A stretch of 64,000 nt of DNA from Phycisphaeraceae bacterium. Its GTDB lineage: Bacteria; Planctomycetota; Phycisphaerae; Phycisphaerales; UBA1924. Where the stretch lies: NCBI GenBank assembly GCA_019636695.1, contig JAHBXD010000005.1, positions 62,001 to 126,000 of the forward strand, in the 5' to 3' direction. Positions within the stretch are counted from its first letter, which is position 1; every line of letters begins with the position of its first letter. The notes under the pieces were generated by a model. It saw nothing but the letters and a program-made list of their open reading frames with translations. It was not told the DNA's origin and made no database searches. This document shows, in pieces, positions 21,626 to 27,801 of this stretch. Both the position numbers and the translations under genes were made by a program.

Positions 21626-22006
21626 ATGGCGAAGAAAACGGCGAAAAAAGCCAGCAGTTCAAAGACGGCCAAGGCACCCAAGATCGCGGCTTCGGGCAAA
21701 CCCCGCAAGAAGAGCGAGCTGTACACCGTCATAGCCGCCCATACAGGGCTGGCTCGTAAGCAGGTCGCACAGGTGTTCGAGGTGATGGGGCAGGTCATGG
21801 CGGCCGACCTGGCCAAGCCCGGGAAAGACTCTCCCAAGGTCTTTGTTGTTCCCGGCCTGATGAAAGTGACCAGCCGCTACAAGCCCGCGACGCCGCAGCG
21901 CAAGGGCATCGACCCATTCACCAAGCAGGAAAAGGTGTTCAAGGCCAAGCCCGCTTCGACGGCGATCAAGATTCGTCCGCTCAAGGCGCTCAAGGCCATG
22001 GTCTGA
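21626..22006 (+). CDS. HU-family DNA-binding protein with lysine-rich N-terminal tail
   Basis: The 126-residue basic protein is a nucleoid architectural factor. Residues 1-35 form a Lys/Ala/Ser-rich tail (AKKTAKKASSS, GKPRKKSEL) like that of histone-tail HU proteins. The HU/IHF core begins at LYTVIAAHTGLARKQVAQVFEVM and continues with FVVPGLMKVTSRYKPATPQRKGIDPFTKQEKVFKAKPAS, where the beta-arm is longer and more basic than in E. coli HU. The usual GFG turn is replaced by PGL. ATG 21626 (MAKK) was chosen because GGAG (21613-21616) is spaced 9 nt; an ATG two codons earlier is possible. A strong terminator follows. Confidence 0.88.
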   Translation: MAKKTAKKASSSKTAKAPKIAASGKPRKKSELYTVIAAHTGLARKQVAQVFEVMGQVMAADLAKPGKDSPKVFVVPGLMKVTSRYKPATPQRKGIDPFTKQEKVFKAKPASTAIKIRPLKALKAMV

Positions 22007-22067
22007 CGATCGGATGCGTTCGCCGGCTTGCCGGGTGACGCCTAGTGCCAAAGATCGATCACGCGCT

Positions 22068-22104
22068 GCCACGCCTCAATCTCATGAGGCGTGGCGTGCT
22101 TTTT
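22068..22104 (+). terminator. rho-independent terminator of the HU gene
   Basis: Perfect 11-bp stem GCCACGCCTCA (22068-22078) with TGAGGCGTGGC (22085-22095), a 6-nt loop, GTGC, then TTTTT (22100-22104). Confidence 0.88.
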
Positions 22105-22339
22105 GGCGCACACCACGTCAGCCGGCCCGGTTCGCGACACCCACCGGTTTAAACTTCGAGCGCTGTCGAGCATTGTGCATCCGCCATGGCGATGACGAAC
22201 ATGCACTCGCATGATTTTCATGGAAGGTCAGGTGCAGCAGGCGGTGACGTACTTATTGAAGCCTTCGTCTCCATTCCATTGCCACACCACACACGTGGCG
22301 CACGCACACGCGGATGCGAAACCCTCATTGTTTCGATAC

Positions 22340-22355
22340 CCCACATTTGGAGGGT
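22340..22355 (+). repeat. left arm of a 16-bp inverted repeat bracketing the LuxR-type gene
   Basis: The sequence CCCACATTTGGAGGGT here is the exact reverse complement of 23269-23284. The arm lies 40 bp upstream of the predicted -35 box of the regulator gene, a reasonable place for an activator site. Confidence 0.7.
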
Positions 22356-22394
22356 ATCTCGCGCACTTCTCAGTTCTCGGAAATCGATGGGGGC

Positions 22395-22423
22395 TTGCCC
22401 GCACGAAGTGTTTGCAATACGTT
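22395..22423 (+). promoter_or_regulatory. predicted promoter of the LuxR-type gene
   Basis: -35-like TTGCCC (22395-22400), a 17-bp spacer, -10-like TACGTT (22418-22423), then 8 nt to the ATG at 22432. Transcription would begin at or next to the start codon. Confidence 0.45.
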
Positions 22424-22431
22424 ATTGCGTT

Positions 22432-23238
22432 ATGGATCGGACGAGGGACCTGGATGGAGACACGCTCGCGATAGCGCATGTGCGTGCGATTGTTGATGCA
22501 CTCTCGCTGGTCGCCGCATGCGCGGGCGACGGCGCCGCCAAGAAGCGGCTGCTGATGGAGCGTATCGCCGACCACATCGGCGCCGATCGCTGGGTCTGGT
22601 CTGTCTGTCGATACAACGACCGCGCGGATGTCATGCCTGTTTCGTTTCTGCACAGCGGTTTTTCCGATGCGGATCTGGCCAACATCATGGAAGGCTCGCA
22701 AGATCCTCGTGCCCCATCGCCCGAGCATGCGCCGATTGTCGCTGAACTCCAGAAAACCGCCTCGCACTTCACAAGGCGCCGGGACGAACTGCTTGCTGAT
22801 GACGCGTGGGATTCTTCTCCGCACATTCAACGATATCGCCGGGCATTGGGAATCAACGAGTGTTTATGGTCCATCCGGCCGCTGGATCAGCACCATTTCA
22901 GCGCGATGGGCTTTCACCGCCTGATCGGGCGTCCGGCCTTTGATCCGTGGGCAAGCCTGGTTGTGCATATCACCTTCGGGTCCGCCGCGATGCACACCCT
23001 CGATATGCAGATGGCGCAGGACACTCCGGACGTGCTCGGCCTTCCGCCTCGGCTGCGCACGACGTTCGGCCTGATGCTCGAAGGCTTCGGTCGAGCGGAT
23101 ATCGCATCAAGCCTGGGAATCAGTCGGAATACCGCCGCCGAATATATGTCCACGATCTATCGCCACTTCCGAGTCGCAGGGCACCGTGAGTTGCTCCGAC
23201 TGTTTCGATCCGGAGACGGTGGTCATCGTGCGAGCTGA
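22432..23238 (+). CDS. LuxR-type transcriptional regulator
   Basis: The 268-residue protein has a C-terminal LuxR/FixJ-type helix-turn-helix (about residues 203-258). Visible there are LPPRLRTTFGLMLEGFGRADIASSLGISRNTAAEYMSTIYRHF and the final HRELLRLF, with the usual E replaced in the first helix. The N-terminal ~190 residues have no receiver Asp and no autoinducer-domain signature; they may be a GAF-like sensor (HIGADRWVW, LDQHHFSAMGFHR) but this is not certain. The frame is open to 22186; ATG 22432 is supported by a promoter-like TACGTT 8 nt upstream. The gene stands alone, has its own terminator, and lies between 16-bp inverted repeats, hinting at autoregulation. Confidence 0.82.
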   Translation: MDRTRDLDGDTLAIAHVRAIVDALSLVAACAGDGAAKKRLLMERIADHIGADRWVWSVCRYNDRADVMPVSFLHSGFSDADLANIMEGSQDPRAPSPEHAPIVAELQKTASHFTRRRDELLADDAWDSSPHIQRYRRALGINECLWSIRPLDQHHFSAMGFHRLIGRPAFDPWASLVVHITFGSAAMHTLDMQMAQDTPDVLGLPPRLRTTFGLMLEGFGRADIASSLGISRNTAAEYMSTIYRHFRVAGHRELLRLFRSGDGGHRAS

Positions 23239-23268
23239 TGGCAGCACACCCGCTTGATCCGCATGCTG

Positions 23269-23284
23269 ACCCTCCAAATGTGGG
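23269..23284 (-). repeat. right arm of a 16-bp inverted repeat bracketing the LuxR-type gene
   Basis: ACCCTCCAAATGTGGG, exact reverse complement of 22340-22355. It begins 31 bp after the stop codon of the LuxR-type gene. Confidence 0.7.
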
Positions 23285-23427
23285 AGTTGTCTCAGTCTGT
23301 TCGCGCGCTAACCTAGCACTTGGCATTGTGTCGGCCGAGTTTCTGAGCGCGGGGCTGTGCTTGTTGATCGCTTGCTTGTTCGCACTTCAAAGACCGTCCT
23401 GTGCCTGCATGTTTGCGCATGTGTGCG

Positions 23428-23468
23428 GTGCGGGGGAAAGCCCGGGATCCCCCGCACTATTTTACTTT
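23428..23468 (+). terminator. rho-independent terminator of the LuxR-type gene
   Basis: Perfect 10-bp stem GTGCGGGGGA (23428-23437) with TCCCCCGCAC (23448-23457), a 10-nt loop, then TATTTTACTTTT. Confidence 0.8.
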
Positions 23469-23544
23469 TGACGCCGTCAAATGGATGACGTCTGGAAAGG
23501 CATTGCCCCGCCGAACGACCGCAGCCATCCGCTCGAGCATGTAC

Positions 23545-25464
23545 TCACAAGCACCCGGCTTCGAACAGATCGAGGTAGTAAAAGAAATCTGCTGCGTCAA
23601 TACGCCCATCGGGGACTCCATACATCGGGTCGGCAGGATCGCTCGACGCGGTCAGATCCGCCAAGAGCAGATCGCCCGCCGCGAAACGATCGAGGTAGTA
23701 GAAGAAATCCGGGGCATCGACGACACCATCCGGCCGGCCATACCGAGCATCGCCAGGGTCGGATGAGCCGGTCATGTCCGCACGGCATGCATCGGGGCAG
23801 TCACCCAAGCCGCAGAAAAGGTCGAGCCGAGCCACGGGTGTACGCGCGAGACCACCTGGGGCCGCCTGATCTTCGACTAGCCACTGCATAAACAAACGTC
23901 GACCGTTGAGAGCGGCATTGTCGGGTATGGGCCATCGGTACGTTGCATATCCGGAAGCGGCATCGCCTTGTAAGGTGAACGGCCCGGCGAAAATCTCCGG
24001 ATCGACAAGCCGCCCATTGATCGGACCGGCGACGCTGATGGCGACATAGGCGGTCCGGCCCGCATCGGCATTGGTGATGCCGATCTGGAAGTCGCGATTC
24101 CCGAGATTGGGTGGAGACAACGCGATGAGCACAGGCGTGCGGCCGCCGCTGCCGGATACCCCGTTGCCGATGCGCGCGGGGTTCGGGGGCAGTTCCGACC
24201 GGAGGCGCGGTCGATCGAACGGAAACTCACCATTGGCCACGCGCGGGTCAAGAAGCCCGTTGGCGATGAAATCGACGACATCGGCCGCAGCCTGCGGCGG
24301 CAGAATGATCGCAGGGATCAGCGGATCGATATTCTGCGGGAACTGCACGGTGCCAGGCGCACGAGCATAAAACGCCATGACCTGCTGAAGCGAGCCGAAT
24401 TGCCCGTTATGCATGAAACGAACTCGCAGTGCGGCATTTCGCAACCCCGGCACCTTGAAACGACCGGCATCTCCCGGAAGCCCGGTGACGGCCTGGCGGC
24501 CGGGGTCTTCGGCGATCGGGCGCAGGCCGATATTGCGGAACGTGTTGTTCGTGAACAATGGCGGAGTGTGACAGGCATCGCACCGCTGCTGGCGAAAGAC
24601 GTTCAGCCCTCGAACTTGCGCTGCGGTCAGTGCGGAGGCATCTCCGGCATCAAAGCGATCCCACGGCGACTGGTCGCTGATGAGTGAACGCTGGTACGTC
24701 GCCAAGGCCATGGCGATGCGTTCGGCGGTTATCGCATCATCGCCGAAGGCTGCCGCAAACAACTGGGGATAGGCAGGCCCGGATGCCAGAGCTGCGGCGA
24801 CATCCGGCGGGAGATCGACCGCAAGGGCCAGCGGCCGGACGCGCTCGAGTTTGCGGGTGATCTGCCCCCAATCTCGCTCAGCGTGGGCCATTTCAACCGA
24901 GTTTGTCGGCGGGGCCACGGCCTGCGATTCGAGCGCGCCCCCCGCCGCGATGCGAACCTGCCCGGAGTGCGGATCGATGAAGGTGCCCGAAGCCCGGCCA
25001 TCCCAGAAGAGCACCGGGGCATACGCCGCGTTGATCATCGAGTTGGCCGAACGGTCGGTGACCTGCCGGGCGAGCGAGAAGAGATCGCTGGGGATGAAGT
25101 TCTGGTCGGGATCGCAAGAAATCACGCCGGGCGATCCGAACTTGTCGTCCGGGGAAGGCGTCAGGCCGTCAAGGCCGGGATGGACGGCGATGCGCGGGTC
25201 GGCGCCTGCTCGTTCGGGCAGGTGGCACGTGCCGCACGAGACGGTGTTGTCCGTCGAGAGTTGTTCGTCCCAGAACAGGATTTTGCCCAAGAGCCGTTTT
25301 TCTTCAGTCGGAGGATTCTCAGGCGGAAACGGAGTGGGTGGAAGGTCGGCATGAGCGATATACGCCGCCAGCAGGATGGTGCCGACAGCGGCTGGAAGCC
25401 CGATGACCAGGAGCGCACCGAAAACAGCGCCACGATTTCGCAGTTGACGCGAATGCCGCACCAT
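23545..25464 (-). CDS. di-haem cytochrome c peroxidase-like protein with dockerin-like C-terminus
   Basis: The 639-residue exported protein has an N-terminal membrane segment (13-35) and a MauG/bacterial cytochrome c peroxidase domain (about 50-410). The domain has two haem-binding sites, CGTCH (77-81) and CDACH (295-299), plus the FWDGRA and FMHNGQF segments. Such enzymes reduce peroxide or oxidise partner proteins in the periplasm. Residues 430-545 form a beta-rich domain. The C-terminus carries two 33-residue repeats (562-594 and 602-634) with the shared pattern AD(M/L)T-SSDP-YG-PDG--DA-DFFYYLD-F, which resembles the calcium-binding dockerin-type repeats common on Planctomycete secreted proteins. 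The frame is open to 25575; ATG 25464, with GGGGG upstream, was chosen. Confidence 0.88.
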   Translation of the reverse strand: MVRHSRQLRNRGAVFGALLVIGLPAAVGTILLAAYIAHADLPPTPFPPENPPTEEKRLLGKILFWDEQLSTDNTVSCGTCHLPERAGADPRIAVHPGLDGLTPSPDDKFGSPGVISCDPDQNFIPSDLFSLARQVTDRSANSMINAAYAPVLFWDGRASGTFIDPHSGQVRIAAGGALESQAVAPPTNSVEMAHAERDWGQITRKLERVRPLALAVDLPPDVAAALASGPAYPQLFAAAFGDDAITAERIAMALATYQRSLISDQSPWDRFDAGDASALTAAQVRGLNVFRQQRCDACHTPPLFTNNTFRNIGLRPIAEDPGRQAVTGLPGDAGRFKVPGLRNAALRVRFMHNGQFGSLQQVMAFYARAPGTVQFPQNIDPLIPAIILPPQAAADVVDFIANGLLDPRVANGEFPFDRPRLRSELPPNPARIGNGVSGSGGRTPVLIALSPPNLGNRDFQIGITNADAGRTAYVAISVAGPINGRLVDPEIFAGPFTLQGDAASGYATYRWPIPDNAALNGRRLFMQWLVEDQAAPGGLARTPVARLDLFCGLGDCPDACRADMTGSSDPGDARYGRPDGVVDAPDFFYYLDRFAAGDLLLADLTASSDPADPMYGVPDGRIDAADFFYYLDLFEAGCL

Positions 25465-25581
25465 GGAATACCCCCTGCACAAACCGGCCACCCACTCGGG
25501 ACGATCATCGTGACTGGGTGGTCGCTTCGAGAGCGATAAACGCACCTGGAGGTGGCTTATTGCGGACGGCCGCAAGGAGTT

Positions 25582-27801
25582 TCAGCGTCCGAGTTCTTCG
25601 ATCGCCAGGGCCGCATCGAGCAGGGCCTCGCGGGCCTGGGTCAGTGTGTGCACATAGGCCTGAATAGTGTGCGCAGGATTGCGTTCACGGGCCGAAACAC
25701 CGCGCCCCATGGCGCGCCATTGCCCCGCCGTGGCGTACTCGATTTCCTCGCGAAGCATCGGCAGCATCCACGCGCCGTATCCCGTATTCGGATCGGTGGC
25801 AACGTACATATTCTGGAACCATGGGCGACGCCCCGGGAGCGGTTGGGCCGGCGGGTCGGAGATCCATGCGGCTTCCGCCGCCATGAGCGCCGCGTTGGCT
25901 TTCTCGAGCACATTCCTGGGAAGCCCCTCGGGCATGGCGACCTCTATCGCCGAGGCGAATCGAGCCGCCGCAACCTGCAAGAGTCGGGCGTGAGCATCGA
26001 TCTCGGCGAACTCTGCTGCGAGCGGGGCGTCGTCGAGGAATGACAGCGGCAAGCGAAGTTCGTTTGCGCGTCTGGAAAGATCGAGGAGGTGCCGACGTGT
26101 ATCTACGGCGGTGCGGACATTATCGAGAGGAAGAAGCGGCGCCGACGCGAGCCTTGAGGCAGCAACGAGGGTCATCCGCGTGACCATGAGGGCAGGTTCG
26201 TAGTCTTCGCCCACGACCTTGCGATACCACCGGAGGGTATCGTTGATGCCGTGATAACTTGTGCCTGGGCCCCCACTTGCACTCAACGCCATGCTGGGCA
26301 CGGAAAGAAAGCAGCAGAAGCCGATGTGGTCGCTGCCCCCGCCGAGGTCGCCGATACCGGGTTCTTCCGGGAAGGTGATATCGCGCGTTCTCGATATCCA
26401 GGCATCAAAGACCGAGCGATCGGGCTGGCGAGCCTGGGGAATCGTCCGGCTGGCATCGAGGATAATGCGCTTGAGCGACGGGGTAGCCGAAGCGCCGAAA
26501 TGCGGTCCTGTTGTGGACATATCCAGGTTGATATAGGCGACGGCTTTCTCGCGAAGTTCGGCCGCTCGCCCTTCGACCCATTCGGTCGAACCGATGATGC
26601 CCCATTCTTCGGCGCCCCACGCGGCAAAGAGAATTGTGCGCCTGGGTCGGTGCCCCCGGCGTGCGAGTTCGCCGAATGCGCGAGCGGCTTCGAGCATACA
26701 GATGGTGCCGCTGGTCGGATCGGCAGCGCCGCAGCCCCATGCATCGTGGTGCGATCCGATGATGATCCATCGATCGGGTTCGATTTCGCCGGTGATCCTC
26801 CCGATGACGTTCGCAGTTTTTTTGATCTCTCGCTTCTGCTCGACGTGCACTCGGACACGAAGATCAGGCCCGCCGGTCAAGCGGTAGACGAAGGGAAGCC
26901 CGCCTCGCCAGGCCTGCGGTGCCGGTTCGCCGGTCATGTGCTGCATGATCTCGCGTGCTGCGCCATACCCGATGGGCTGCACAGGAATTCGGAGGAGATT
27001 GGCTTCAAGGGCGCTCCACGGCAGTCGGTCAGCGTCTTCCGTGGCTTCGCGGAGCGGCGTCAACGGATCGCCGGGGTACCCGAGGTTGATGTAGGAACCT
27101 CGCTGGATATGTTCCGGCCCGGCCCAGCCGCCTTCAGGATACTCCAGGCCCTGGACATAACCCGTGTCGGCGGGGTCGGTGTAGACAAGCAGGCCGGCCG
27201 CGCCGGCCTGTTGTGCAAAGACGGCTTTGAATCCGCGGTAGTTCCCCCCGTAGCGGCAGATCACAATCTTGCCTGTGCAATCGATGCCGAGTTCACGCAA
27301 TCGGGCAAAGTCCTCCAGGCGTCCGTAGTTGGCATAGACGACCTCACCGACGACGTCGCCCGATCCGGAGTATGCGGCAAAGCCCGGCCACTGATCTGGG
27401 TGGGCGGTATCTGGGTCGCCGGGGACCGGTGACTCCTTGACCGGCAGCGACATGTGGACTGGAGAAATTATGTCCACCGCGGCCGCGACGGGCGTCGCGA
27501 GCAGCGGCCAGAACTCGTGAATCTCTACCTCAAGGCCCATGTCGCGCATGGCTTCGGCAATGCGTTGAATCTGCCGCTCGTCTCCCGGCGTGCCGGCGAT
27601 GTGGGGTTCCGAAGCGATTTTGTCATGCCATGCACGCAGCGAATCGGCCGTTGCAACCCCTACCAGCGACTGCTCGTAGGCCGCGTAGCGTTCTCGCTGG
27701 GCTGTCGGCCAAAGCGTGAGCGCGTCGATGTCGAGCGCTGGGGGCGTCGCCGACAACACACAGACAAAGGCAGCCGCCACGGTGAGGGCACATCGCTTCA
27801 T
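25582..27801 (-). CDS. M28 family metallopeptidase, glutamate carboxypeptidase II-like
   Basis: The 739-residue exported protein has a signal peptide (1-20), then the three-domain layout of glutamate carboxypeptidase II/transferrin-receptor relatives. A PA domain spans about 115-300. The M28 zinc domain spans about 325-560, with GSHHDAW (His352, Asp353), AADPTSG (Asp361) and WGAEEWG (Glu398-Glu399). A helical dimerisation-like domain fills 570-735. Unlike some relatives, all main metal and catalytic residues appear intact. It probably trims peptides outside the cytoplasm. Its start overlaps the stop of the threonine dehydratase gene upstream (27798-27801), so the two are likely cotranscribed. 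Confidence 0.9.
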   Translation of the reverse strand: MKRCALTVAAAFVCVLSATPPALDIDALTLWPTAQRERYAAYEQSLVGVATADSLRAWHDKIASEPHIAGTPGDERQIQRIAEAMRDMGLEVEIHEFWPLLATPVAAAVDIISPVHMSLPVKESPVPGDPDTAHPDQWPGFAAYSGSGDVVGEVVYANYGRLEDFARLRELGIDCTGKIVICRYGGNYRGFKAVFAQQAGAAGLLVYTDPADTGYVQGLEYPEGGWAGPEHIQRGSYINLGYPGDPLTPLREATEDADRLPWSALEANLLRIPVQPIGYGAAREIMQHMTGEPAPQAWRGGLPFVYRLTGGPDLRVRVHVEQKREIKKTANVIGRITGEIEPDRWIIIGSHHDAWGCGAADPTSGTICMLEAARAFGELARRGHRPRRTILFAAWGAEEWGIIGSTEWVEGRAAELREKAVAYINLDMSTTGPHFGASATPSLKRIILDASRTIPQARQPDRSVFDAWISRTRDITFPEEPGIGDLGGGSDHIGFCCFLSVPSMALSASGGPGTSYHGINDTLRWYRKVVGEDYEPALMVTRMTLVAASRLASAPLLPLDNVRTAVDTRRHLLDLSRRANELRLPLSFLDDAPLAAEFAEIDAHARLLQVAAARFASAIEVAMPEGLPRNVLEKANAALMAAEAAWISDPPAQPLPGRRPWFQNMYVATDPNTGYGAWMLPMLREEIEYATAGQWRAMGRGVSARERNPAHTIQAYVHTLTQAREALLDAALAIEELGR

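Follow-up and report, generated by a model that had tools for sequence, protein, structure and literature searches.

A gene enclosed by two exact copies of a short sequence in inverted orientation raises the question of what the copies do: they may be binding sites or RNA elements through which the gene is controlled, the ends of a DNA segment that carries it, or a coincidental match. Such an arrangement is found in the window, by which we mean the whole stretch of 64,000 nucleotides of Phycisphaeraceae DNA that was analysed, where a pair of 16-bp arms surrounds the gene of a LuxR/FixJ-type regulator. The following sections consider the arms and their surroundings, the gene and its relatives, the history of the locus and the frequency with which chance would produce such a bracket, before the possible explanations are weighed against each other.

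The inverted repeat and its surroundings

Both arms lie where the preliminary description had placed them (Table 1) and are exactly complementary, the upstream arm reading CCCACATTTGGAGGGT and the downstream arm being its reverse complement, with a spacing of 913 bases between them. The upstream arm is 76 bases away from the ATG and the downstream arm 30 bases away from the stop codon, and the regulator gene is the only gene found between the arms. The surrounding DNA is indeed less GC-rich than the window, with 57.2% upstream and 58.2% downstream versus 62.5%. One element of the description was not recovered, namely a -35 box located 40 bp downstream of the upstream arm: a sigma-70 scan of positions 22000-23800 returned 0 sites, when 0.9 would be expected from shuffles.

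Upstream of the regulator gene, on the + strand, lie the genes of a nuclease-family protein and an HU-like protein; downstream of it, on the - strand, come those of a MauG-type di-haem peroxidase, which carries a dockerin, and of an M28 peptidase. Because the regulator is encoded on the + strand and the MauG and M28 genes downstream of it on the - strand, the downstream arm falls in a convergent intergenic region. On the upstream side, the open reading frame can be extended in frame to position 22186. However, GC3 drops from 0.675 inside the ORF to 0.488 in 22186-22431, and the alignments with homologues begin at residues 4 to 20 of the regulator in its shorter form; a start near 22432 is therefore preferred, which leaves the upstream arm non-coding.

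Table 1. Positions of the features discussed in the text, numbered along the window
Feature	Position	Strand
Approximate block with the regulator and MauG-dockerin genes, absent between the HU-like and M28 genes in the congener and two family members	22042..25580	
24-bp dyad GATACCC-N10-GGGTATC around the upstream arm; candidate for an operator or a 5'-UTR hairpin	22335..22358	
Upstream 16-bp arm	22340..22355	+
Gene of the LuxR/FixJ-type regulator (268 aa; N-terminal domain sensor-like, helix-turn-helix at the C-terminus)	22432..23238	+
Downstream 16-bp arm (exact reverse complement), between convergent genes	23269..23284	-

The upstream arm is itself part of a longer symmetrical sequence, GATACCC-CACATTTGGA-GGGTATC, situated 73 bp upstream of the ATG. 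The overlap of an arm with such a dyad is only mildly surprising, because dyads with 7+7 bp and a loop of 3-12 are equally common in the window (52, or 0.81 per kb) and in Markov sequences (46-59). When the two copies are read in the same direction, the downstream one carries ACAACT and CAG in place of the upstream CGATAC and ATC; it thus retains all ten spacer bases, which form the asymmetric centre of the dyad, and loses the outer half-sites. A kept spacer combined with lost half-sites is odd for a pair of operators, which usually retain the reverse, and better suits chance or RNA-RNA pairing. A second short dyad, GCAATA-CGT-TATTGC (window 22414-22428), ends 3 bp short of the regulator's start codon and could be an operator or a start-codon hairpin.

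The enclosed gene and its relatives

The gene had been described as being of the LuxR type, an assignment that holds, weakly as far as its own sequence is concerned (Pfam GerE, E 1e-4, 22.3 bits for a cut-off of 23.5). GerE (PF00196) is matched by 13/13 aligned members of the family at E <= 0.01, and the family profile matches the NarL (E 6e-11), FixJ and GerE structures. The AlphaFold2 model of the regulator (pLDDT 88.4, pTM 0.85) comprises an N-terminal domain of mixed helix and strand and a helical C-terminal domain. Its best Foldseek matches are SdiA, RhlR, TraR and CviR, with E values of 7e-8 to 1e-5, followed by GAF domains. Identity to these four proteins is 10-17% and the full-length TM 0.30-0.52; we take full-length values of at most 0.52 to suggest that the two modelled domains are arranged differently from those of LuxR receptors. 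At E <= 0.01 the 13 members match 14 Pfam families, and Autoind_bind, the autoinducer-binding family, is not one of them. Because Autoind_bind finds no sequence match, the protein is classed as a LuxR/FixJ-type sensor-regulator and not as a quorum-sensing receptor. A search of the genome with PF00765 for a LuxI-type synthase gave 0 matches, as it also did in the control genomes.

Relatives of the regulator are found at E <= 0.001 in 34 of 101 genomes, its own included, the best of the others being 45% identical, and at E <= 1e-30 in 9 of 163 genomes of the family, again with its own included. The regulator was not found in the single congener compared, and a search of plasmids, phages and viral contigs gave no match. 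While a first profile search of genome contigs found no relative, a second one, with a five-member alignment as query, returned 8 loci that are 29-45% identical, with L117, L118, L121 and L123 being places already counted. The closest homologue (45%; L071, 4402-8559) lies between two similar genes that, judged from their translations, resemble HD-domain proteins. In two genomes the regulator occurs as tandem pairs of diverged copies (L072, 6087-8796; L080, 4079-5689).

The preliminary description had proposed that the locus be compared in close relatives, and that a lack of conservation of both arms in strains that keep the gene would speak against its interpretation. The flanks of 16 full-length homologues were checked, 12 with 300 bp on each side and 4 with 400 bp, in a set that leaves out the weaker homologues of the E <= 0.001 search and a truncated one in L090/L120. 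The arms are conserved in 0/16 of them, but these proteins are only 26-45% identical to the regulator, and operators are not expected to stay conserved at such a distance. The best match to the 16-mer in the flanks of the 16 homologues has 5 to 7 mismatches, none having fewer than 5. The longest inverted repeat between the upstream and downstream flanks is 7-10 bp around the 16 homologues (9 bp in the 400-bp flanks of locus L091), as in shuffles, which served as controls for 12 of them.

A lineage-specific block at the locus

In the congener, the gene order is nuclease, HU-like and then an M28 gene in the opposite direction, with 281 bp between the matched segments. The adjacency of the HU-like and M28 genes also occurs in two further genomes, with gaps of 134 and 173 bp, which makes 3 out of the 10 other genomes that were looked at; the regulator is present at this locus in 0/10 of them. 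Similarity to the congener stops at 22041 on the left and restarts at 25726, in the M28 gene, from which it follows that the regulator and the MauG gene are held together on an extra block of ~3.5 kb. The ends of this block do not coincide with the arms, the left one lying ~300 bp from the upstream arm and the right one ~2.3 kb beyond the downstream arm. In the congener, a relative of the MauG gene adjoins an FtsX-like gene (FtsX-like as judged from its translation) on another contig, and the locus of that FtsX-like gene in the window's genome is without MauG. The comparison with the congener therefore indicates a rearrangement of the locus at places other than the arms.

The MauG-type di-haem protein (window 23545-25575) ends in a GC-type dockerin domain. 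When used as a query, it gives 73 and 80 matches in the two genomes of the genus, nearly all of the listed ones to the dockerin end, and 0 to 13 matches in the other nine genomes searched.

Further copies of the 16-mer and related sites

The search for additional copies that had been suggested for this repeat found the two arms only, with no third exact copy in the genome (3.11 Mb, 94% complete). At 3 mismatches, the genome holds 11 further sites versus 12 for the reversed control, and at <=1 mismatch the 16-mer is present in 6 of 399 other genomes of the order versus 2 for the reversed control. The symmetrised consensus CCCWCMWWWKGWGGG has, at one mismatch, 8 further genomic sites versus 8 for its control. 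Five of these 8 lie outside predicted genes as compared with 1/8 for the reversed control (one-sided Fisher p 0.06), an intergenic excess that may be a weak positive and on which we do not build. The genes beside these sites are unrelated, and include those for an N-methylation-motif protein, a YjgF family member, a PilZ-domain protein and an epimerase (6 flanking proteins scanned). Among the degenerate dyad sites of this genome, one (L099) is located between two divergent PilZ-domain genes.

The dyad pattern GATACCC-N10-GGGTATC is found at 111 sites at <=3 mismatches versus 42 for the reversed control. An interpretation of this excess as a regulon was rejected because the sites at 2 mismatches are mostly genic (6 of the 9 lie inside predicted genes) and because the two patterns differ in codon-like content.

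Chance expectation for the bracket

Exact inverted repeats of at least 16 bp with arms 100-2000 bp apart are expected at 0.075 per 64-kb window in Markov sequences. Over 304 kb of the genome, consisting of the window and 12 sampled stretches, 0.4 are expected at the same spacing and 1 is observed, while exact inverted repeats of 15 bp exceed expectation, with 5 versus 1.7. The stretches of relatives (160 kb) contain three longer inverted repeats (17, 19 and 28 bp), at two places and with arms 96-170 bp apart. When arms are placed at random, 1.04% of the trials leave the two of them outside predicted genes and a single gene between them, a figure that rests on a crude gene prediction. The product gives a chance expectation for a single-gene 16-bp bracket of ~0.0008 per window and ~0.04 per 3.11-Mb genome, and takes no account of repeats of other kinds, which a reader would have reported as well. 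As matters stand, the value of the finding is mainly one of calibration: by chance, an exact 16-bp bracket around one gene would be met in roughly one of every 25 genomes of such a size. The bracket is thus notable for one window and weak once all windows and all reportable types of repeat are allowed for; it is unusual for one genome and unremarkable across a large scan.

Competing explanations

The explanation that we favour, while giving it not quite an even chance, is that of an ordinary ligand-sensing regulator carried on a lineage-specific block, with the dyad as a candidate control site and the second arm as a coincidence. The regulator would be a single-gene, ligand-sensing protein of the LuxR/FixJ type beside an unrelated MauG-dockerin gene; the dyad upstream of its ATG would be the best candidate for a control site. 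The sequences, the predicted fold, the lineage-specific block and the lack of other exact copies are shown, while ligand sensing by the protein, the dyad as an operator and a coincidental second copy are what we infer; the 16-bp match beyond the stop is most likely coincidental and, if active, would give the same DNA-binding protein an accessory contact. This explanation is favoured by the chance expectation per genome, the lack of a third copy, the numbers of near matches in this and the other genomes of the order as set against the reversed controls, the absence of the arms around the homologues, the loss of the half-sites downstream and the sensor and DNA-binding domains of the model. The same chance expectation also lends some support to something real. 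Counting against coincidence, moreover, the product of the bracketed gene happens to be a regulator that binds DNA, and paired sites are plausible for such a protein, and the upstream arm lies in a dyad of its own, next to which stands the intergenic share of the consensus sites. The arms could be paired sites for the regulator, whose dimers, bound upstream and downstream, would loop the gene and set its own expression. That possibility, to which we give distinctly less credence, is in line with arms that are exact, present in both flanking intergenic regions and unique to the regulator gene, with the position of the upstream arm inside the 24-bp dyad, with the helix-turn-helix of the protein and with the intergenic location of the degenerate sites. 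It has to contend with homologues that lack the sites, with degenerate sites that are no commoner than in the control and whose neighbouring genes have no common theme, and with a downstream copy devoid of the outer half-sites of the dyad. If the arms were paired control sites, they would provide a defined operator for a LuxR/FixJ-type regulator of the Phycisphaerales; a literature search for such operators, short of full texts, gave nothing useful.

At the RNA level, the 5' arm could fold into a hairpin and the 3' arm could base-pair with the loop and the 3' stem of that hairpin; the ends of the message would then be joined, with an effect on its stability or translation. Such pairing, which we regard as unlikely, would account for the asymmetric centre common to both copies. 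The 16-bp duplex between the arms is predicted at -38.0 kcal/mol with short flanks, versus -11.6 kcal/mol for the local upstream hairpin, and in the lowest-energy fold of 22330-23300 the arms are paired with each other. However, that stretch as a whole folds no better than shuffles (z +1.08, 17/20 shuffles being as stable), the upstream arm may not be transcribed, and there is no Rfam match. A structured RNA was rejected in view of the lack of an Rfam family and of a whole-message fold that is not special. It is slightly less likely still that the 5' hairpin and the antisense 3' arm make up a switch at the two ends of the regulator message, in which the 3' copy would capture the loop and autoregulation would proceed through an end-to-end contact of RNA or DNA. 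The upstream dyad of this switch would work as a hairpin or as an operator, with an end-to-end contact of the DNA running through protein. The preliminary description had also envisaged a small cassette, mobile or invertible, in which the arms would be the terminal repeats and the regulator the cargo. Inverted arms do surround one gene, which is missing from the congener compared and is contained in a lineage-specific block. Yet this block is ~3.5 kb long and does not end at the arms, no recombinase is encoded between them, no target-site duplication was found, the flanks outside the arms being different, and the genome has no other copies of the 16-mer. A cassette is therefore very improbable and was rejected, as the site of the congener lacks the larger block instead. 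Altogether, coincidence and a control site are about equally likely as accounts of the bracket. For the second arm, chance is the single most likely account, autoregulatory sites come next and an RNA interaction third. The observation of the repeat is correct and the gene appears, from its sequence, to be an ordinary regulator; a function of the bracket is putative.

Comparison with known systems

Autoregulated regulators that are known to act through a DNA loop have several degenerate operators with conserved half-sites. The present locus is like them in that one site occurs twice, around or close to the regulator gene; it differs in that the arms are a single exact pair, with the half-sites lost in the second copy. 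With LuxR/FixJ (GerE-domain) regulators, the protein shares the C-terminal helix-turn-helix, its own match being just under the Pfam cut-off, and Pfam reported no receiver domain. Compared with the quorum-sensing LuxR receptors, its family is without an Autoind_bind match and its identity to them is low (10-17%). In the model, a sensor-like domain followed by a helix-turn-helix has its best Foldseek matches among these receptors and the LuxR solos (SdiA, RhlR, TraR and CviR), but GAF domains match as well.
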